Source: a virus
IMG/VR virus record: IMGVR_UViG_3300021373_000913
Location: 1-21,585 of that record
Reading direction: 5' to 3' (one strand)
Length of the DNA stretch: 21,585 bases
Shown here in pieces: positions 4,381 through 20,489 of the stretch; positions within the stretch are counted from its first letter, which is position 1; every line of letters starts with the position of its first letter. Position numbers and translations under genes: made by a program. The notes beneath the pieces are model-generated. The model saw only the letters and a program-made list of their open reading frames with translations, did not search any database and was not told the DNA's origin.

Positions 4381-4693
4381 TCAACATCTGTATTGCATCT
4401 TCTGGAACATGCAAACCTTTCTCTCGCATTTCAACAAGGTACTCAGCCATCTCTTTCGCTGTATCAAAACTTTTGTTTTGGCTTTCTTCATCGACACGGT
4501 TAGACCAGTGACACATAAACCCGATATCAGCTTCATAGACATAGGCATCAGACATAATTACCTTGTTGTCTTTAAGGTACTTTGCCCAGAGTTCGTAGCC
4601 GCCAGCCAGCCAGAGTTCCATCTCCTTGTCAAAGGACACATCCACATCGGGTGTCAGTTCAGGAATTGGTGTACTCCATCTACAATAACTCAT
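4370..4693 (-). CDS. Conserved small phage protein (MSYCRWS family)
   Basis: One hundred and seven residues starting MSYCRWSTP, with a C-terminal helical region. The opening MSYCRWS followed by a YVYE segment (here SDAYVYEADIGFMCHWSNR at about 48-66) is a pattern I recall from many phages of diverse hosts; the function is unknown. Compared with the versions I recall, this copy has an insertion of about 40 residues between MSYCRWS and the YVYE segment, containing ELWLAGGYELWAKYL. No strong ribosome-binding site precedes the ATG, which instead overlaps the stop of a six-codon leader ORF (ATGA). Confidence 0.82.
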   Translation of the reverse strand: MSYCRWSTPIPELTPDVDVSFDKEMELWLAGGYELWAKYLKDNKVIMSDAYVYEADIGFMCHWSNRVDEESQNKSFDTAKEMAEYLVEMREKGLHVPEDAIQMLIEG

Positions 4694-4723: not shown

Positions 4724-4730
4724 AATTGAT

Positions 4731-4807
4731 GGGGGGGGTGGTAGGGGTATATATATTTTTACCCGCCCCCCGCGTGTGATCTGACGGGGGGGGTGCCAGA
4801 TCTGGGG
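4731..4807. other. G/C-tract region with potential secondary structure
   Basis: This non-coding segment has G8 at 4731-4738, GGGG at 4744-4747, C6 at 4766-4771, G8 at 4786-4793, the 10-base palindrome CCAGATCTGG at 4796-4805, and GGGG at 4804-4807. The first G8 and the C6 can pair across an AT-rich loop (about 4733-4771), with one bulge and one wobble. The gene-free stretch 4694-4925 holds this, the inverted repeat at 4834 and the DnaA box, and no convincing gene. Candidate packaging or replication site. Confidence 0.45.
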
Positions 4808-4833
4808 TTTTTCGCCATAATTCTTAACTTTGT

Positions 4834-4853
4834 CGCATAACCTCCATTATGCG
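4834..4853. repeat. 7-bp inverted repeat, non-coding region before terS end
   Basis: CGCATAA at 4834-4840 and TTATGCG at 4847-4853 are perfect inverted copies with a six-base loop (CCTCCA). It lies in the stretch without genes between terS and the MSYCRWS gene, about 40 bases from the DnaA-box-like sequence. Confidence 0.5.
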
Positions 4854-4890
4854 TATTGGCTTTTGTTTGTTTACAATCACTTAGCTACCC

Positions 4891-4899
4891 TGTGGATAA
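4891..4899 (-). promoter_or_regulatory. DnaA-box-like sequence
   Basis: TGTGGATAA at 4891-4899 is the exact complement of TTATCCACA, the strict consensus DnaA box. It stands alone in the gene-free region next to terS. One nine-base match in a window this size is unlikely but possible by chance, so a role as part of an origin is only suggested. Confidence 0.4.
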
Positions 4900-4925
4900 C
4901 TTTATGCCCGATATGCCCTATTTGC

Positions 4926-6093: not shown

Positions 6094-6381
6094 TCATCGC
6101 CCCTTCTTAAATCTAATCCTCGGCGTTTCATCATCCGGCACCTGATCCCAATCGGCAAACGCCACAGATAGAGGCTCAGTTACACCGTCATGCTCTAGCG
6201 GCCAAATCTCAACCGCCACACCCGCCTTTGTTTTTTTAATGCACACGGTCATGTTACGAACATCAATCCAGCCTTCCTTAGAGTACATGACATACTCACG
6301 GCCTTCATAAAGCATTTCTCGTGTCTCGCTTTCGCGTCCCTGCGGTGCAGGTAGCGGCTCATTAGAATGGTAATTCGTCAT
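6094..6381 (-). CDS. Unknown phage protein
   Basis: Ninety-five residues beginning MTNYHSNEPLPAPQGRES. It has a mixed beta-rich central region (EYVMYSKEGWIDVRNMTVCIKK) and an acidic C-terminal part with DWDQVPDDETPR. No known domain, signal or membrane segment. The ATG at 6381 is preferred over the TTG just before it; GAGG lies 9 bases upstream. It overlaps the 202-residue gene by 20 bases, so translation is probably coupled. Confidence 0.78.
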   Translation of the reverse strand: MTNYHSNEPLPAPQGRESETREMLYEGREYVMYSKEGWIDVRNMTVCIKKTKAGVAVEIWPLEHDGVTEPLSVAFADWDQVPDDETPRIRFKKGR

Positions 6382-6970
6382 CAAGATGCACCTCTGCCAA
6401 TGTTTTCTGTTTCGTTACGCTCTCAACCACCGCACCATCAAACATCCCCTTGATAGCGTCCAGCGTCTTTGCTTCCTCATTTTCTCGCCACGCACCGATG
6501 ATGCGCCCGATCTCCGCCACAGAGTAAACGATCATGTCACGGTTATCCTTCTGCACCCGTGACACCTCAACATCTGTTTTGGCAATCGCCAGCACCTTGC
6601 CGTCCTTCATCGGTGCCTCCCAATGCTCACCAGTAAGTTCCTTCGCCCCAGCAAGCACTGCCGCCTTCTCCAGAGCCTTAATGCCTCTAATGGTCGTCTG
6701 CACTTCTTCTTCCACCGCTATCGGGTCAACCTTGTCAATCGCCGCATTCATCTTATCCATCTGCTCGTGAAAGCGATCACGCAATTCAGCCGACACAAGG
6801 TAGGGCAGTCTATCGACACCCCATCGCAGTTCCGCCTCACTCATAACCAGATCATATTGGATCAACCACTCCTGCACCTTCTTGTACGCCCTGTCCGTTG
6901 GCGCAAAGTGTTTCTTAACCAGACTCGTGTCAGGCTTCCTAGTCCTCTTTGTCTTTCTTTGATAACTCAT
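6362..6970 (-). CDS. Phage protein with SSB-like C-terminal tail DDELPF
   Basis: Two hundred and two residues, starting with a basic tail (SYQRKTKRTRK), then a mostly helical region with a central hydrophilic segment. The last six residues are DDELPF (197-202). Bacterial SSB ends in DDDIPF, which docks replication partners, so this tail could recruit the same proteins or mimic SSB. I see no OB-fold pattern and do not call it an SSB. It is read directly after the primase-helicase and the TGTGAT repeats, with an AAGGGA site before the ATG. Role in replication or recombination is inferred. Confidence 0.8.
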   Translation of the reverse strand: MSYQRKTKRTRKPDTSLVKKHFAPTDRAYKKVQEWLIQYDLVMSEAELRWGVDRLPYLVSAELRDRFHEQMDKMNAAIDKVDPIAVEEEVQTTIRGIKALEKAAVLAGAKELTGEHWEAPMKDGKVLAIAKTDVEVSRVQKDNRDMIVYSVAEIGRIIGAWRENEEAKTLDAIKGMFDGAVVESVTKQKTLAEVHLDDELPF

Positions 6971-6996
6971 TTCTTTTTCCCTTTCTGACTCGCTGA

Positions 6997-7099
6997 TGTG
7001 ATATGTGATGTGATTGTGACCCCTAAAGGGGGATCACATCACACACACACCACCACACGATGTGATTTCACATGTGATTTGGTGTGATTTGCAATCACA
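6997..7099. repeat. TGTGAT repeat array (candidate iterons or operators)
   Basis: Within 103 bases there are eight exact TGTGAT or ATCACA hexamers: TGTGAT at 6997, 7004, 7009, 7061, 7073 and 7083, plus inverted ATCACA at 7033, 7038 and 7094 (nine starts, some sharing an end base), and a near copy TGTGAC at 7015. Two inverted repeats stand out. TGTGATGTGAT at 7004-7014 pairs perfectly with ATCACATCACA at 7033-7043, around an inner CCCC-TAAA-GGGG (7020-7031). TGTGATT-TGC-AATCACA is at 7083-7099. The array fills the gap after the primase-helicase and overlaps its last codons. Replication origin or regulator binding are the likely roles. Confidence 0.75.
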
Positions 7100-8969
7100 T
7101 CTCAGCCCCTTTGTCCTTGATAATCCACACTTTTTTATCTTCTATGGCAATCACACGCTTGGACTGCAAAGCACTCCGTGCGTCTCTACGCTTTCCAGCG
7201 TTCACATCGGGGCATTTATTGGCGTGTGCCGCATGCCAAGCGTCCACATGAATGCTTATTTGCCCCGCATCTATGATAGCATTTTGCAGTGACTCAAGGG
7301 CGAATTGCTGATCCGTTGTTAGCGATGTTGCCCCCTTATTATTGCGCTTCTTTTCCTTGATTTCATCGGCACCGACCTCAACCATCACGACGCTCTGATC
7401 GTCGATTGTGGCGACTGGCACCATCTCAAAGTTCATATCGCCGATTGGTTCTGCATCTTTCTGCTTTTCTACCTTGAGCGTCACTATGCCATCGAAGTTA
7501 GTGACAGACATAGCCGCATCAACGCCGCCCAAGAGGCTAGACGACCCCCTCATGCCCTTCGCCGTGTCCTTACCCGCATGATGTACTGCGAGCAACGCAG
7601 AGCCTGTGTGCGCCTTTATTTGGTCACAAGCGGCAACGAACAAGCCCATATCTGTTGCGCTGTTCTCCTCACCCCCAAGCAAAGCCCTTGCCACGGTATC
7701 CACGACAACCATCGTGAACTGCTCGCCGATGCTGTCAATCGTCATCTTTAGCCGCGCAATGTCCGCCTCATCGCGGAAATTAACCGCCGTTGGCAGGATG
7801 TACAGGTTCGCCGTGTCGTGCTTGCCGTGCCACGCCTCCCACGCCTTCACGCGCTTACCCATACCGCCGACACCCTCGCCAGCTATGTACAGCACAGAGC
7901 CGCGTTTAACCGCCCTATTTTGCCACGCTAGGCCGTTTGCGATGGACAGAGCCATATCGATAGCCAGAAACGACTTACCGCTTGCTGGTGCGCCGTACAT
8001 CACCGTGAAGCCGTGCAACGTGACCAGACCGTCCACCGCCCACGTCACAGGTGGCATCGCCTTTAGCTGGTTGGTCGTCATTATCTCAAACGGCACGATT
8101 TGAAAGCCGTCAGCGTCCGCAACAATCTCCTCTACCAGTTCAGGGTCTGGATTGTGGATGTCCGCCTCTGTAACCTCGCTGGCCTTGGCAACCGCCTCAC
8201 CCAGAGTTTCGGCATCGTTACCCTGCGCCAGCCAGTCCACAACATCGCCCTTTGGTGGCAGATCCGACAGCCCGATCACCTTAATCTTTGATGCCCTGCC
8301 CCAGAGTGTGCGCTGAACCTTGTCAGCGTGTTGCCACCCCGCATTATCATTATCGGGCAGTATGACCACATTCCGGCCAACAAAATAATCAGCCAGTTCA
8401 GGCTTGAAATTACCTGCGCCGCCTGAGTTTGTGGTTGCAACAAACCCGATCTTGATAAGTGCGTCAGCCGCCTTCTCACCTTCCACGATGAAGATAGGCG
8501 CGTCTGGGTTCTGCATTATGCCCATTAAATTGTACGGCAGTGGCTCGACATCCTTGACTGAGTTTAGCCAGCCGCCCTTGCCGTCCGGTCTGCGCTGTCT
8601 AAACGTCTTCGGCTCATAGCGCAGAATTTGGTAACCCAGTTCGCCGTCAGCATTATAATATTCGTATATTTTGCTGATGTACTGCTTTGGTACTAAAGAC
8701 TTCTGAGCCTGTCGCTGGATGCCGAACTCTTTTTCTAATGTCTCGGCAACCGACCCTGAAATAGTGACCTTGCCGTAATTCCGAACGATGTCAACTACAC
8801 CGCCGCCCTCACACAATTCAAAGTCATAGTAAGTGGATTTTTGTAAGTCTAATTCTTTTGAGCCGTGCGTACCCCAGCGCAGTGTACGGCCTTTGACCGA
8901 CAGCTTAGCATTCGGCTCGCCCCAGTAGTGCTTGGCGACTCGCTCGGCGTGTGCAGATATATTTGTCAT
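7095..8969 (-). CDS. Primase-helicase: TOPRIM plus RecA-like (RepA-type) ATPase
   Basis: Six hundred and twenty-four residues. N-terminal part (about 25-65) has the shape of a CHC2-like primase domain (RWGTHGS...FELCEGGGVVDIV) but lacks the zinc cysteines. TOPRIM: E163-G-E-K166 and D206-N-D208-N-A-G, with KGDVVDWL at 240-247. RecA-like domain: Walker A GAPASGKS at 326-333, Walker B TMVVVD ending at D424, and HHAGKD at 463-468, a hexameric-helicase pattern as in RepA/Gp4-like proteins. The C-terminus (about 550-620) looks like a winged helix. It would unwind DNA and probably make primers at the fork. The SSB-like gene precedes it and TGTGAT repeats follow. Confidence 0.93.
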   Translation of the reverse strand: MTNISAHAERVAKHYWGEPNAKLSVKGRTLRWGTHGSKELDLQKSTYYDFELCEGGGVVDIVRNYGKVTISGSVAETLEKEFGIQRQAQKSLVPKQYISKIYEYYNADGELGYQILRYEPKTFRQRRPDGKGGWLNSVKDVEPLPYNLMGIMQNPDAPIFIVEGEKAADALIKIGFVATTNSGGAGNFKPELADYFVGRNVVILPDNDNAGWQHADKVQRTLWGRASKIKVIGLSDLPPKGDVVDWLAQGNDAETLGEAVAKASEVTEADIHNPDPELVEEIVADADGFQIVPFEIMTTNQLKAMPPVTWAVDGLVTLHGFTVMYGAPASGKSFLAIDMALSIANGLAWQNRAVKRGSVLYIAGEGVGGMGKRVKAWEAWHGKHDTANLYILPTAVNFRDEADIARLKMTIDSIGEQFTMVVVDTVARALLGGEENSATDMGLFVAACDQIKAHTGSALLAVHHAGKDTAKGMRGSSSLLGGVDAAMSVTNFDGIVTLKVEKQKDAEPIGDMNFEMVPVATIDDQSVVMVEVGADEIKEKKRNNKGATSLTTDQQFALESLQNAIIDAGQISIHVDAWHAAHANKCPDVNAGKRRDARSALQSKRVIAIEDKKVWIIKDKGAEM

Positions 8970-10574: not shown

Positions 10575-10763
10575 CTAACAGACCTCCCCAGCCGCCTTGG
10601 CGACTTCCTTGAGCCGTTCATGACGCAATTCATGCAAGCCCTTTTCGATCAATTCATCGGCCAGACTGGCCATCGATCTGTGGGCTGAATACTCTAATTC
10701 GTCCTTTAATCCAGCCGTTGTGCTTGTTCTGAGCCGGAGCAAGGTTGCTTTAATTTCAGACAC
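10575..10763 (-). CDS. Ribbon-helix-helix (Arc-like) DNA-binding protein
   Basis: Sixty-two residues with an RHH pattern: a short beta strand (ATLLRLR, 6-12), helix one (AGLKDELEYSAH, about 17-28), a Ser-containing turn (RSMA), and helix two (SLADELIEKGLHELR). Two such chains would pair as in Arc or MetJ. It is the first gene of the leftward early operon, just after the divergent promoter region, so it probably regulates that region or itself. The start is GTG, with AGGAG 7 bases upstream. It is short but complete. Confidence 0.78.
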   Translation of the reverse strand: MSEIKATLLRLRTSTTAGLKDELEYSAHRSMASLADELIEKGLHELRHERLKEVAKAAGEVC

Positions 10764-12740: not shown

Positions 12741-13702
12741 TCGGTAAACTCACACCGGATACAATCATATCCGCATCACGAATACCTGTATTGATGGGCG
12801 TCAGCCCATACGAAACACCAAACGAACTGATGCGTTCCATCTTAGATGCTCGTCAGGGAAAGCCGCGTCAATGGCTGGAGCAGAACGAACCTATGTTTTG
12901 GGGCGACACGCTGGAGCCAGTCATATTGGGTGAGGCCGCAAAGCGTCTGAACCTGACAGATGTGGTTCTTGACTTCGATGCGGCGGTACACCACCCATCG
13001 CTACCGCTTGCCGCCTCGCTGGATGGCAAGGGTACTGGCACCCAGATGGTCGCGCATGATCCAGCCAACGGCATCTATTGCCCACAGGGTCAACCTGTCG
13101 ATATAAGCGGCGTGGGCGTCCTTGAGGCAAAGAACACCAGCGTAATAGCCGAAGACACCCCAGCACCGCACAGGGGCGTATTACAGCTACAGGCGCAGAT
13201 GATGTGCGCTGGATATGAGTGGGGTTGCGTTGCCGTGTTGTATCGAGGCGGTGAGTTGCGCCTGTTCATGTATCAGGCCGATCTTGTGGTGCAGGGCAAG
13301 ATTGCCAACGCAATCCGCGAGTTTGAGCGTAACATAGAGATGGGTGACTGGTATCCCGCCACCACGTCAGCAGACGCCAACGCCGCGTGGAACAATGTTG
13401 ACGATGGCGCACCGCCGCTTGATCTGGATGATGTGCCGGACGCAGATTATTGGGCTGGCATCCTGATTGACGCCAAGGCGCAGAAGAAAGCCTTGGATCA
13501 GGAGATCGACATTGCTGAGACGAACCTGAAAGAGATGCTGGGCAATCATGAGGAAGGCGTTGTGACTAATGACGGCTCGCGTTATTACATCAAGTGGCCT
13601 ATGCGTAAAACTCGCGCACAGCCAGCCAAGACTGTCGCCGCAAAGCCTGAGTCGGTTGTCCGGCAGAAAACCCTGACGGTGAAGGAGATGCCCAATGGCT
13701 AA
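12737..13702 (+). CDS. YqaJ-type exonuclease/recombinase (PD-(D/E)XK)
   Basis: Three hundred and twenty-one residues of the YqaJ viral recombinase family. SASRIPVLMGVSPYETPNEL (12-31) is the family start, GDTLEPVI (57-64) gives E60, LAASLDG (91-97) gives D96, VLEAKN (128-133) gives E130 and K132, and QLQAQMMCAGYEWGCVAVLY (150-169) follows with the conserved Gln. All core residues are present. It should resect DNA ends for annealing recombination or degrade host DNA. The last 70 residues are a basic tail outside the domain. The start is the TAATG overlap after the 20-bp repeat. Confidence 0.95.
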   Translation: MVGKLTPDTIISASRIPVLMGVSPYETPNELMRSILDARQGKPRQWLEQNEPMFWGDTLEPVILGEAAKRLNLTDVVLDFDAAVHHPSLPLAASLDGKGTGTQMVAHDPANGIYCPQGQPVDISGVGVLEAKNTSVIAEDTPAPHRGVLQLQAQMMCAGYEWGCVAVLYRGGELRLFMYQADLVVQGKIANAIREFERNIEMGDWYPATTSADANAAWNNVDDGAPPLDLDDVPDADYWAGILIDAKAQKKALDQEIDIAETNLKEMLGNHEEGVVTNDGSRYYIKWPMRKTRAQPAKTVAAKPESVVRQKTLTVKEMPNG

Positions 13703-13901
13703 TCTTACAAAGGCACAGAGCGAAGTCTTGCGCTGGATTGAACGACACCAACGCAGGTACGGCTTCACGCCGTCAGTGCGCGAGATTGCGGCTGGAATGG
13801 GCAAGGGCGTCACAACCATTCAGTACCATATTCACAATCTGGTTGATCGCGGCGCAATCAAGAAGCCAGCCGGAGTGCATCGGTCTATTGAGATACAGTA
13901 A
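13695..13901 (+). CDS. Stand-alone LexA-like winged-helix DNA-binding domain
   Basis: Sixty-eight residues that match the N-terminal DNA-binding domain of LexA: LTKAQSEVLRWIERHQRRY, then TPSVREIAAGMGKGVTTIQYH (25-45, the helix-turn-helix), then LVDRGAIKKPAGVHRSIEI. No self-cleaving peptidase part follows; the gene ends normally at TAA. It could compete with the host LexA or regulate the phage operon. It overlaps the exonuclease gene by 8 bases, uses a GGAG site, and is the last gene before the terminator. Confidence 0.88.
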   Translation: MANLTKAQSEVLRWIERHQRRYGFTPSVREIAAGMGKGVTTIQYHIHNLVDRGAIKKPAGVHRSIEIQ

Positions 13902-14570: not shown

Positions 14571-14804
14571 ATGAAAAAGCTACTATTAATCGGATCACTG
14601 TTAGCGTTTACACTACCAGCAAATGCTGGCGTAAATTGTAGGACTGATGCGTGGGGCAATACTACCTGCTATGGAACAGGTGACGACTCAGGTTACAGTT
14701 CAACATCAAGAACAGATGCTTGGGGCAACACTTCAACGACAGACAACAGAGGCAACACAGTAAAATGTCGCACTGATGCTTGGGGCAATACTACCTGCTA
14801 TTAA
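14571..14804 (+). CDS. Exported small repeat protein (RTDAWGNT repeats)
   Basis: Seventy-seven residues. Residues 1-19 are a typical signal peptide (MKKLLLIGSLLAFTLPANA, cut after ANA). The mature part holds three repeats: CRTDAWGNTTCY at 23-34, RTDAWGNTS at 47-55, and CRTDAWGNTTCY again at 66-77. The outer repeats carry paired cysteines that could form disulfides in the periplasm. I recall similar (T/C)RTD.WGNTT repeats in secreted proteins of marine bacteria. It is the last gene of the plus arm, before a strong terminator. A periplasmic or surface role is inferred; function unknown. Good AAAAGGA site. Confidence 0.87.
   Translation: MKKLLLIGSLLAFTLPANAGVNCRTDAWGNTTCYGTGDDSGYSSTSRTDAWGNTSTTDNRGNTVKCRTDAWGNTTCY
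14652..14672. repeat. Coding repeat, copy 1
   Basis: This 21-base segment encodes WGNTTCY and recurs without mismatch at 14781-14801, so the repeats are recent or held by gene conversion. Confidence 0.9.
14781..14801. repeat. Coding repeat, copy 2
   Basis: Exact second copy of 14652-14672 at the end of the exported repeat gene. Confidence 0.9.
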
Positions 14805-17988: not shown

Positions 17989-18150
17989 TCATTCGCTTTT
18001 GGCTTTTACATTCTTCCAAATGCGGATACCAAGCAGGATCAAACCACCGACTCCAAGAACCAGCGTGATCCATTCGTTCAACGCTGGTAACCAGATCGGG
18101 CTTGATATGCCAGCACCCGAAAGCGCGTAATCTACGTCTGATTCGTTCAT
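17989..18150 (-). CDS. Small membrane protein, holin-like
   Basis: Fifty-three residues from the second of two adjacent ATGs (18150), which has GAGG 7 bases upstream; the first ATG would be only 4 bases away from it. One membrane segment covers about 23-44 (LPALNEWITLVLGVGGLILLGI), followed by a basic tail (RIWKNVKAKSE). The start overlaps the TGA of the tail-fibre gene. It is the first gene after the fibres in the lysis region. A small holin or pinholin-type role is possible but not shown. Confidence 0.75.
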   Translation of the reverse strand: MNESDVDYALSGAGISSPIWLPALNEWITLVLGVGGLILLGIRIWKNVKAKSE

Positions 18151-19187
18151 CATTCAGCCTCTAACGCTGTGATCCGCGCTTCTAGCGCATTGATTGTTTC
18201 GCGCTGTTCTTTGATAGCCGCAGTCAGTAGCGGGATGACATCAGTGTAAGACATACCCAACACACCAGTTTCAATGTCTTGGACACTGACCGCCTCTGGC
18301 AATACTGCCTGAACGTCCTGTGCAATCAAGAATGGTCTGCGTGTTTCATTCTCATCGTTGTTATAATAACCCATAACAGTTCTGAGTGTGCTGACCTTCT
18401 CTGATGCGTTTTCAATATTCTCGACAATGGTTTTCTGTGTTTCATCTGAAATGCTGTTCCAGCTATTGCCTAGATTTGTCAGGTAAACACCATTTGTGCC
18501 AATATTTGTTGAACCTGTTCCAATATAAAAGTTACTGTCAGTGCTGGCCTTGAAACCCATAGTGACTTCAACTTGGGTTGTTTTGAACATATACAGCACT
18601 GTTGCAGTATTGGCAGGATTTGTAAGTTCTAACTTTGAGCCAGTGGCTCTTGCGCTAGTGCTTCCGATTAAAGCTGTGCCACCTGTATTTATACGCATCC
18701 GTTCCGTTGCACTTGTTCTGAAAATCATTGGCGCAGATTCTTCATTAGAAATATACATATCTGAGTTATTCAGAAATATTCCAGAGCCATCACCAGAGCC
18801 AGTTCCAGTGTTATCCGATGTTAATCTAAAACGTGGATTTGTAGTTGCGTTTACGGTCAACGCAATACCATTTGCTCCTGCTGGTGTCGTAGTACCAATG
18901 CCCACGTTGCCTGACGCAATAATAGTGTCGCCAGTGCCATCAGGATCAATGGTGATGTCGCCGTTTGTGTCGGTGCTTGAAATCGTGTTGCCGTCTAGCT
19001 TTAGATTATCCACCGCCAAAGCATCAATCGCGTCAGTGCCGTCAGCAAAGTTCTTTAGATGTGTCATCTGCTCCCGAAGCGCGTTATTGACTGCGCTTGG
19101 CAACATACCCTCTGCCACAGAAATGTCACCGATTACATCATTCGATGCGTTTGTTGCCGAATATTCGGTGAGTTTATCTTTAGCCAT
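18150..19187 (-). CDS. Tail fibre/spike with S74 chaperone domain, copy 2
   Basis: Three hundred and forty-five residues. The N-terminus (MAKDKLTEYSATNA, then an AVNNALREQMTHLKNF segment) resembles the other fibre and should be the virion-attachment part. A repeated SSTDTNGDITIDPDGTGDTI segment follows, then a beta-rich shaft. The C-terminus is a Peptidase_S74 domain: S247-D-E-T-Q-K252 holds the Ser-Lys cleavage pair, and the last residues form a coiled coil (ETINALEARITALEAE). S74 domains help trimer folding and cut themselves off. GGAGG lies 8 bases before the ATG. Confidence 0.93.
   Translation of the reverse strand: MAKDKLTEYSATNASNDVIGDISVAEGMLPSAVNNALREQMTHLKNFADGTDAIDALAVDNLKLDGNTISSTDTNGDITIDPDGTGDTIIASGNVGIGTTTPAGANGIALTVNATTNPRFRLTSDNTGTGSGDGSGIFLNNSDMYISNEESAPMIFRTSATERMRINTGGTALIGSTSARATGSKLELTNPANTATVLYMFKTTQVEVTMGFKASTDSNFYIGTGSTNIGTNGVYLTNLGNSWNSISDETQKTIVENIENASEKVSTLRTVMGYYNNDENETRRPFLIAQDVQAVLPEAVSVQDIETGVLGMSYTDVIPLLTAAIKEQRETINALEARITALEAE
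18961..18999. repeat. Shared segment in fibre gene 2
   Basis: These 39 bases match 20248-20286 with one mismatch, far more than needed to keep the protein repeat, so the two fibre genes share recent ancestry or exchange segments. Confidence 0.9.
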
Positions 19188-20489
19188 CTATTCAGCCTCC
19201 AACGCTGTTATACGCGCCTCTAATTCTTGGATTGTCTTAACCAACAACGGCACAAGTTTGGCTTGGTCAATTCCCTGATACACAGGATTGCCATCGTCAT
19301 CTATGTCATTGTGTGTGCCTGTTACACTTTCTGGCACGACCGCCTGTGCTTCGTGGGCTAGGAAACCATCAACAACTGTGTCGGGGTCAATGATAAAGTT
19401 AAAACGCGCTGGCTTGAGTTGCTTGAGTCGTGTGGTTGCATCCCAATCGTAGGTTACGTTTTCTTTTAGGCGGTAGTCTGACGATGTAATGTAAGCTGTT
19501 GCGGTTGTCGATGTTCTAATTTCACCCACAAAGTTACCGCCGTTTTTGTAGCCAACCATAGACTGTGCGCCGCCAGAGGCTCTTGCGTGGGTAAGAAAAC
19601 CGTTTGCTTCAAGGGTGTAACCATCACCACCCGCCGTTGTGGTTGCAACTAATAAAGCCCCACTGCTGGTGATACGCATACGTTCTGTGGCATCAGTGTT
19701 ACATAAAAACTTTATATTTCCACTTGCTTTATTAGAAACATAAAGGTCTGTGCCACTATATCCAATACCACCGACTCCATTTACAGAATCACTATCTCGC
19801 GCATAAAAAAACGAACCACTTGCACTTGATATATCAACCGCTTTACCAAAACCGAATGAATCTACAGGAGTAGTGCCAACGCCCACGTTTCCACTGCTGT
19901 CGATGCGCATCTTCTCATCAGCAACATCAACCACATTGCTAATGTCGGTATTGTCTTTGATGTTGAAGGTGATGTTCCCAGAGCCGCCACTAGCACCACC
20001 GCCAACATAGGCAATAGCCCCACCTATGCCTGTGCCGTTTACGTCTGCACGGTTGTGGAAGCCAAGCGCACAAATGCTGTCATTGGAGGCAAATGAATTA
20101 TTGATTTGTACTCCAAAATCAAAAGCTGATGTGCTGGTCGATGTCGTTTGTGTTGTCAGATGGCTGTTAGGCGAACTCGTCCCAACGCCCACGTTGCCTG
20201 ACGAAATAACAGTGTTACCAGTTCCGTCAGGGTCAATCGTTACGTTGCCGTTTGTGTCGGTGCTTGAAATCGTGTTGCCATCTAGCCGCAAATTATCAAC
20301 ATTTAGCTGATCCGCAGATGGCGTCTCAAGCGCAACCGCGCCTGTGCTGACATTCTTTAGGTCAACCATAACCTCACGGATGGCGTTGTTAATCCCAGCA
20401 GGGCTACAGCCTTCCGATATGTCAATAGACTGGATGTCTGTGTTGTCAGCATTGGTCGCGCTGTAATCGCGCACACTGTTCTTTGCCAT
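19188..20489 (-). CDS. Tail fibre/spike with S74 chaperone domain, copy 1
   Basis: Four hundred and thirty-three residues. The N-terminal region (to about 105) is homologous to the other fibre: ATNADNTDI..IDISEG, GINNAIREVMVDLKNV, and SSTDTNGNVTIDPDGTGNT. A repeated GNVGVGT.P pattern (99-106 and 200-207) marks a beta shaft. The C-terminus is a Peptidase_S74 domain with S337-D-Y-R-L-K342 as the Ser-Lys pair, then GFLAHEAQAVVPE (375-387) and a coiled-coil end LEARITALEAE. It should bind the host surface. The start overlaps the TAA of the gene before as TAATG, with AGAGGA upstream. Confidence 0.95.
   Translation of the reverse strand: MAKNSVRDYSATNADNTDIQSIDISEGCSPAGINNAIREVMVDLKNVSTGAVALETPSADQLNVDNLRLDGNTISSTDTNGNVTIDPDGTGNTVISSGNVGVGTSSPNSHLTTQTTSTSTSAFDFGVQINNSFASNDSICALGFHNRADVNGTGIGGAIAYVGGGASGGSGNITFNIKDNTDISNVVDVADEKMRIDSSGNVGVGTTPVDSFGFGKAVDISSASGSFFYARDSDSVNGVGGIGYSGTDLYVSNKASGNIKFLCNTDATERMRITSSGALLVATTTAGGDGYTLEANGFLTHARASGGAQSMVGYKNGGNFVGEIRTSTTATAYITSSDYRLKENVTYDWDATTRLKQLKPARFNFIIDPDTVVDGFLAHEAQAVVPESVTGTHNDIDDDGNPVYQGIDQAKLVPLLVKTIQELEARITALEAE
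20248..20286. repeat. Shared segment in fibre gene 1
   Basis: Partner of 18961-18999 (one mismatch in 39 bases; the first 32 identical). It encodes the SSTDTNG repeat part of the N-terminal region. Confidence 0.9.

Follow-up and report, generated by a model that had tools for sequence, protein, structure and literature searches.

A probable iteron-hairpin replication origin behind a RepA-type primase-helicase gene in phages, with a repeat word that changes together with the winged helix

Described initiator-origin pairs and the locus in the window

In the published accounts of SaPI and PICI elements available to us, the origin lies directly downstream of the initiator gene, contains two sets of short iterons recognized through the C-terminal domain of the initiator, and has an iteron sequence that varies between elements (PMC6092414; PMC7581432 citing Ubeda et al. 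2007). A PICI fragment of primase gene and origin sustains a plasmid, and its authors termed the layout unique among bacterial replicons (PMC6092414). Both SaPI Rep and the SCCmec helicase Cch2 bind repeats just 3′ of their own genes via C-terminal domains, these being direct repeats in the case of Cch2 (PMC7581432). The alpha protein of P4, as summarized in PMC4234260 and references there, joins a TOPRIM primase, a helicase, and a winged helix that binds origin repeats. In pRN1, a stem-loop of ∼100 bp just 3′ of the ORF904 gene is essential, with its structure conserved and its sequence not, and the oriV of RSF1010 combines iterons with priming hairpins (PMC4234260).

The window, by which we mean the whole stretch of 21,585 nucleotides analysed here, carries a terminase large subunit gene of its own and a gene resembling those of lysozymes/endolysins. 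It also carries a gene for a predicted secreted protein of 77 aa (14571 to 14804) that contains the repeat RTDAWGNT three times and starts like a signal peptide, and two adjacent genes (18150 to 19187 and 19188 to 20489) whose products are alike at their starts and ends and which look like duplicated tail-fibre genes.

TGTGAT or its complement ATCACA occurs nine times in 103 bases (starts at 6997, 7004, 7009, 7033, 7038, 7061, 7073, 7083, and 7094), with a tenth copy at 7150 and only seven more elsewhere in the 21.6 kb. The whole-window total of 17 is not unusual (13.7 expected), but the clustering is: when the whole window was dinucleotide-shuffled 100 times, the most that any hexamer reached was 7 copies per 103 nt. 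A perfect 11-bp inverted repeat (7004 to 7014 with 7033 to 7043) encloses a palindrome made of CCCC (7020 to 7023), TAAA, and GGGGG (7028 to 7032), and a second inverted repeat follows at 7083 to 7099. The nine clustered hexamers, both inverted repeats, and the palindrome had been named in the first-pass annotation, and all are present, far beyond chance. The gap folds far better than shuffled sequence on both strands (z about −5), and the simple stem score of the window itself was equalled by 3 of 100 shuffles.

The array occupies the gap from 6971 to 7094, between the primase-helicase stop codon and a gene for a 202-aa protein, both on the minus strand, and its last TGTGAT word reaches into the primase-helicase gene, over the stop and the final codons. 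A ribosome-binding site directly follows the array, ahead of the 202-aa gene, whose product matches nothing in Pfam or PHROG. Consensus scans of the gap found neither a sigma-70-like promoter nor a terminator (a hairpin with a T-tract). Readings of the array as a transcription terminator or as a known RNA family were rejected, the T-tract hairpin and an Rfam match, respectively, being absent. The features are as follows.

6362 to 6970, minus strand: gene for the 202-aa protein; the nearest relatives also have it behind the array
6995 to 7099, no strand: iteron array of nine TGTGAT words, including the distal pair beside the primase-helicase stop codon; on the primase coding strand, TGTGA is forward before the centre and reverse after it
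7004 to 7043, no strand: central stem-loop, 11-bp arms around TGTGA-CCCC-TAAA-GGGGG
7061 to 7072, no strand: quasi-palindromic word pair TGTGATTTCACA
7083 to 7099, no strand: distal inverted pair TGTGATT-TGC-AATCACA, overlapping the primase-helicase end and stop
7095 to 8969, minus strand: primase-helicase of 624 aa, with TOPRIM-like primase, RSF1010 RepA-like helicase (AAA_25), and predicted C-terminal winged helix
7122 to 7328, minus strand: codons of the winged helix (about residues 548 to 616), the proposed iteron binder
7161 to 7199, minus strand: codons of the recognition helix (residues 591 to 603), AGKRRDARSALQS

Sequence and fold both place the primase-helicase among the RepA helicases. 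It matches Pfam AAA_25 (5e-38), the profile of its family matches RSF1010 RepA (PDB 1g8y) with an E value of 3.7e-9, and the fold comparison with RSF1010 RepA gave a TM-score of 0.73. The Pfam matches of the primase part to TOPRIM are weak but recurrent, the PHROG assignment is DNA primase/helicase, and the fold of the whole protein is nearest to T7 gp4/Twinkle. AlphaFold predicts a C-terminal domain composed of a helix (552 to 568), a strand, two further helices (575 to 585 and 591 to 603), and two strands, which is the plan of a winged helix. The prediction was reproduced on the isolated domain, with 591 to 603 as the third helix. Sequence searches of this domain against solved structures gave no match; its nearest solved folds are the origin-binding winged helices of ORC1/Cdc6 (E value of 0.01, weak), a likeness that lends weak support to the predicted winged-helix fold only. 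We propose that the protein is an origin-binding initiator acting via this winged helix.

Like SaPI and PICI elements, the window has two iteron sets flanking a centre immediately 3′ of the proposed initiator gene, and these phage arrays are much like the PICI layout. The centre is AT-rich in SaPI and PICI, whereas here it is a G/C-clamped palindrome, and those elements are satellites with Pri-Rep, whereas this is a phage with an RSF1010 RepA/AAA_25 helicase. RepA-type helicases of the RSF1010 kind form a different class from SaPI/PICI Rep. SCCmec Cch2 is alike in being a helicase with repeats downstream of its own gene but differs in its helicase family, its three 5-nt repeats, its sequence-conserved site, and its separate primase. 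The P4 alpha helicase is of another type, and no match to a P4-type helicase domain was found in the primase-helicase, which gave AAA_25/RepA matches only. The P4 origin has a two-part ori/crr layout that was not seen in the window; a winged helix is predicted in the primase-helicase and may bind iterons as in P4. With pRN1 the locus shares a primase-helicase ending in a (here predicted) winged helix and a 3′ stem-loop whose structure is kept as its sequence changes, but ORF904 is archaeal, combines an archaeo-eukaryotic primase with an SF3 helicase, and has no iterons, which are present in the window. The helicase domain is of the same family as RSF1010 RepA; RepA, RepB′, and RepC are separate in RSF1010, whereas here there is one fused protein, in which a predicted winged helix replaces RepC.

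A constant layout with changing letters

Among relatives from viral contigs and one genome collection, about 60 loci include the end of the primase-helicase gene and the gap. In nearly all of them, the gap after the stop codon holds a palindrome surrounded by an array of short words, some forward and some reverse. The architecture is constant and the letters are not, with the repeat word differing by lineage as listed here.

TGTGA: the window, L002 to L005; also L039, L041, L062; also L054, L056 to L060
TGCGA: L006, L008, L009; also L086 to L105
CCGTAY: L010 to L014, L046, L047
GTCG: L064 to L067
GTCCG: L068 to L072, L077
CTCCC: L075, L076
TCCGA: L117, L119
CGAACA: L106, L107
GTGACA: L108
GCGTCCGAA: L126 to L147
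TGTTACA: L125

Forward words precede the stem-loop centre and reverse words come after it, often with an extra pair near the stop codon. This orientation rule was read with L005, L006, L054, L078, L014, and L046 set aside, where the automatic centre fell on a distal palindrome. The lineages sharing it span ∼50% protein identity, and ∼30% when annotated phages are considered. No clear array was present in the 12.3 kb of L121 that were covered, and none was found in the 27.5-kb record of G019, which is possibly incomplete. The first-pass annotation had held that hexamers not conserved between relatives would refute an origin. Applied to the letters, which are not kept, this would have been misleading: the architecture is kept, and the word co-varies with the winged helix.

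The palindrome stays at the centre in relatives despite altered stem letters. Across 14 representative centres, a mean of 5.8 of the 6 loop-proximal base pairs is kept, compared with 1.9 for arms swapped between lineages, and each of the six pair positions takes three or four Watson-Crick types. The stem pairing is partly a by-product of the facing words, and the innermost pairs usually lie outside the word. The centre is C/G-clamped in most lineages, and the loops, of 6 to 10 nt, have a TA step in common, often as CTA/TAG. That CTA/TAG is the start trinucleotide of the primase is a guess, since small C/G-clamped palindromes yield these letters easily.

The number of such sites per genome was judged from 17 records, of which some may be near-complete circular assemblies, as short repeats or overlaps at their ends suggest. 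Each record has a single cluster of the word (least clear in G009), and a word-blind repeat scan returned the array as the top window in 15 of the 17 records and as the second in 2. The relative G020 has the winged helix with no array directly after the gene; its top repeat window consists of intergenic GGCAACAT words about 2.5 kb downstream. Among the assemblies, ∼230 bases at each end of G003 (33,951 bases) match the same stretch of the window, 4423 to 4652, which suggests an overlapping, nearly complete circular assembly. Contig C14 (L054/G016; 34,477 bases) is phage-like, has a 77-bp exact end repeat, and sits inside a MAG labelled Opitutae; this is probably an entire circular phage that was placed in the bin either along with its host or by chance.

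The layout extends to annotated phages. We sampled 17 annotated genomes that encode a RepA-type protein (about 25 to 40% identity), chosen for diversity and not at random; the array directly follows the RepA-type primase-helicase gene in 9 of them and lies 1.5 kb downstream in a tenth. These array-bearing genomes include Rhizobium, Burkholderia, Escherichia, Roseobacter, and Streptococcus phages, and freshwater contigs also carry an array after such a gene. The words are given below, with the array right after the gene except in the last line.

RHph_Y3_1: GTTCCCA
RHph_N65: GCGGAGAT
CGphi29: GGGGACA
CRP-406: GGCTGGAAA
BcepGomr: AAAATAA
rolling: GCGGGACA
1N2-2: CGGTACA
Susuwatari: CTCTCC
Javan249: ATGTCC
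ctyzp037: GGGACA around CTCTATATAGAG, 1.5 kb downstream of the gene

No array follows the RepA-type protein in the other seven (Mae-JY30, Thonko, Optimus, phi673, NBR1, Ligma, and Vibrio 1244), which are mostly actinobacteriophages. Tandem units lie inside the RepA-type gene of two annotated phages, GTACCATCTGTGGAACAC in Corynebacterium phage phi673 (3236 to 3370 of L191) and GAACGTGCG in ctyzp037 (2841 to 2990 of L188), and could be either coding repeats or an in-gene origin.

Pairing of the word with the recognition helix and rival explanations

Comparison of close relatives places the change of word together with a change in the winged helix. The window and G004/L008, which carries TGCGAT, share ∼90% nucleotide identity over the primase-helicase and neighbouring genes, and this identity falls to 52 to 54% across the winged-helix codons and the gap. 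Against G001 and G003, which have the word of the window, there is no such drop (minimum there, 71 to 75%). In a tree of the protein core, from which the winged helix was excluded, TGTGA falls into two separate clades, and TGCGA does likewise; GKRRDAR accompanies TGTGA in both clades, and PARRDAR or SRRRDAR accompanies TGCGA. None of 569 alignment columns of the core separates TGTGA from TGCGA lineages, while 13 columns of the linker and winged helix do. Only G592 and K593 among these 13 are invariant in TGTGA lineages, residues 592 and 593 being PA or SR in the TGCGA lineages.

The same association was found over 13 lineages in partial correlations with core identity removed, which leave phylogenetic dependence beyond core identity out of account. 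Word similarity follows the similarity of the recognition helix (partial r = 0.80, 0 of 2,000 permutations) and of the whole winged helix (partial r = 0.56, 0 of 2,000 permutations). The values are about 0 for the N-terminal and middle windows of the core, weak toward its C-terminus (up to 0.34), and −0.26 for the downstream 202-aa protein, which does not track the word. The comparative evidence that word and winged helix belong together is strong, and because adjacency permits joint transfer by recombination, we count it as comparative evidence and not as a binding result. One recombination tract could carry the winged helix and the array without functional coupling.

One rival reading is an autoregulatory operator. 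The winged helix would then bind the array to control the operon starting with the 202-aa gene, and replication would start elsewhere. The array does lie between two same-direction genes, right before a ribosome-binding site, the co-variation of protein and word would look identical, and the conserved intergenic element at 4729 to 4925, with its AT-rich core and DnaA box, could be the origin instead. Against this, the consensus scans of the gap gave neither a terminator nor a sigma-70-like promoter, the two-sided words around a palindrome are closer to SaPI/PICI and pRN1 origins than to operators, and the array persists at 2.5 kb (G020) or 1.5 kb (ctyzp037) from the gene. The perfect DnaA box of the element at 4729 to 4925 is missing in G007, G008, G011, G013, and G016. 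We regard the operator as unlikely.

An operator read by another protein, either the RHH protein (10575 to 10763), the LexA-like protein (13695 to 13901), or a host regulator of the CRP/FNR type, is strongly disfavoured and very improbable. RHH proteins commonly recognize short half-sites in tandem, and TGTGA resembles a CRP half-site, as the first-pass annotation had pointed out. However, comparison of the window with the TGCGAT relative gives identities of 87% for the RHH protein and 97% for the LexA-like protein, the same as with the TGTGAT relative G003, so that both proteins stay unchanged when the word changes. The window holds no TGTGA-N6-TCACA site with up to one mismatch, the words of most lineages are unlike CRP sites, and each genome has one word cluster only.

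A packaging (cos/pac) or partition/recombination site would also be a single palindromic site per genome, but the array adjoins replication genes, its word follows the DNA-binding domain of a replication protein, and the sequence-conserved element beside the terminase gene is a better candidate for packaging, so that we give this reading hardly any weight. Equally hard to credit is that the array consists of functionless, fast-evolving repeats co-carried with the C-terminal domain by recombination: adjacency eases co-transfer and simple repeats expand readily, but position, orientation rule, palindrome, and single copy are kept at ∼50% and ∼30% protein identity, and arrays are retained even when moved from the gene (G020 and ctyzp037).

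The intergenic element at 4729 to 4925 lies beside the terminase large subunit gene and contains G/C tracts, the AT-rich core GGGGTATATATATTTTTACCC, and a perfect DnaA box at 4891 to 4899. It is near-identical in G001 and G004 and recognizable in G003 and G009, the last of which has a different iteron word. We consider it a candidate packaging site or second origin.

The array as a probable origin and its implications

The array is very probably the replication origin of the phage, of an iteron-plus-hairpin type that the primase-helicase recognizes through its C-terminal winged helix, as judged from sequence comparison and from analogy with the systems above. As at iteron origins, a repeat cluster lies beside the gene of the proposed initiator, once per genome, and by comparison its word is specific to the proposed DNA-binding domain. 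The origin suggested by the first-pass annotation is thus well supported by the relatives, in which the layout is kept and the word follows that domain. No perfect DnaA box was present within 1.3 kb of the array in 12 genomes checked, and one conserved box lies about 2 kb from the array in some lineages only. GC skew, which had been put forward as a means of placing the origin, was computed at third positions and four-fold sites. At four-fold sites it has a local peak of 0.30 in the 0 to 1.5 kb downstream of the array, compared with 0.16 on the other side. The skew neither proves nor refutes an origin, because it reflects the direction of the genes and keeps its sign across the array.

In the mechanism that we envisage, the winged helix would bind TGTGA words via the N-terminal end of its third helix. 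Since words on either side point toward the centre, the primase-helicase molecules would be positioned in two symmetric groups about the CCC-TAAA-GGG palindrome. The palindrome may then be extruded or melted as a hairpin, offering single-stranded DNA to the RepA-type ring helicase, and the primase domain would lay the first primers at the opened palindrome, from which the forks would depart.

The earlier view that the array has no described counterpart was too strong, as SaPI/PICI origins, SCCmec Cch2, P4 alpha, and pRN1 are close parallels. The kind is known from these precedents, and the combination is one that we did not find described for RepA-type phages in the papers searched, a set with most subscription papers outside it. 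It comprises a RepA-type helicase fused to a TOPRIM primase and a predicted winged helix, iterons facing a G/C-clamped hairpin, a setting in ordinary phages, and a word that changes in step with the recognition helix. We think it likely that phages of Proteobacteria, Firmicutes, and marine and freshwater hosts share a widespread, so far undescribed class of origin, in which TOPRIM/RepA-helicase/winged-helix initiators use an iteron-hairpin origin located just 3′ of their own gene. In such a class, the winged helix and the word would act as a specificity module that can be swapped; this would yield many mutually distinct pairs of initiator and origin, and the N-terminus of helix 3 would hold a readable recognition code.

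The origins of most metagenomic phages are unknown, and looking immediately 3′ of a RepA-type primase-helicase gene for a small palindrome with repeats that face it from either side has located candidate origins in dozens of lineages. The natural pairs of initiator and site would form a set for testing the DNA-recognition code. The PICI-like layout in ordinary phages also bears on where the replication modules of satellites came from and on the means by which phages infecting the same cell keep their origins distinct.
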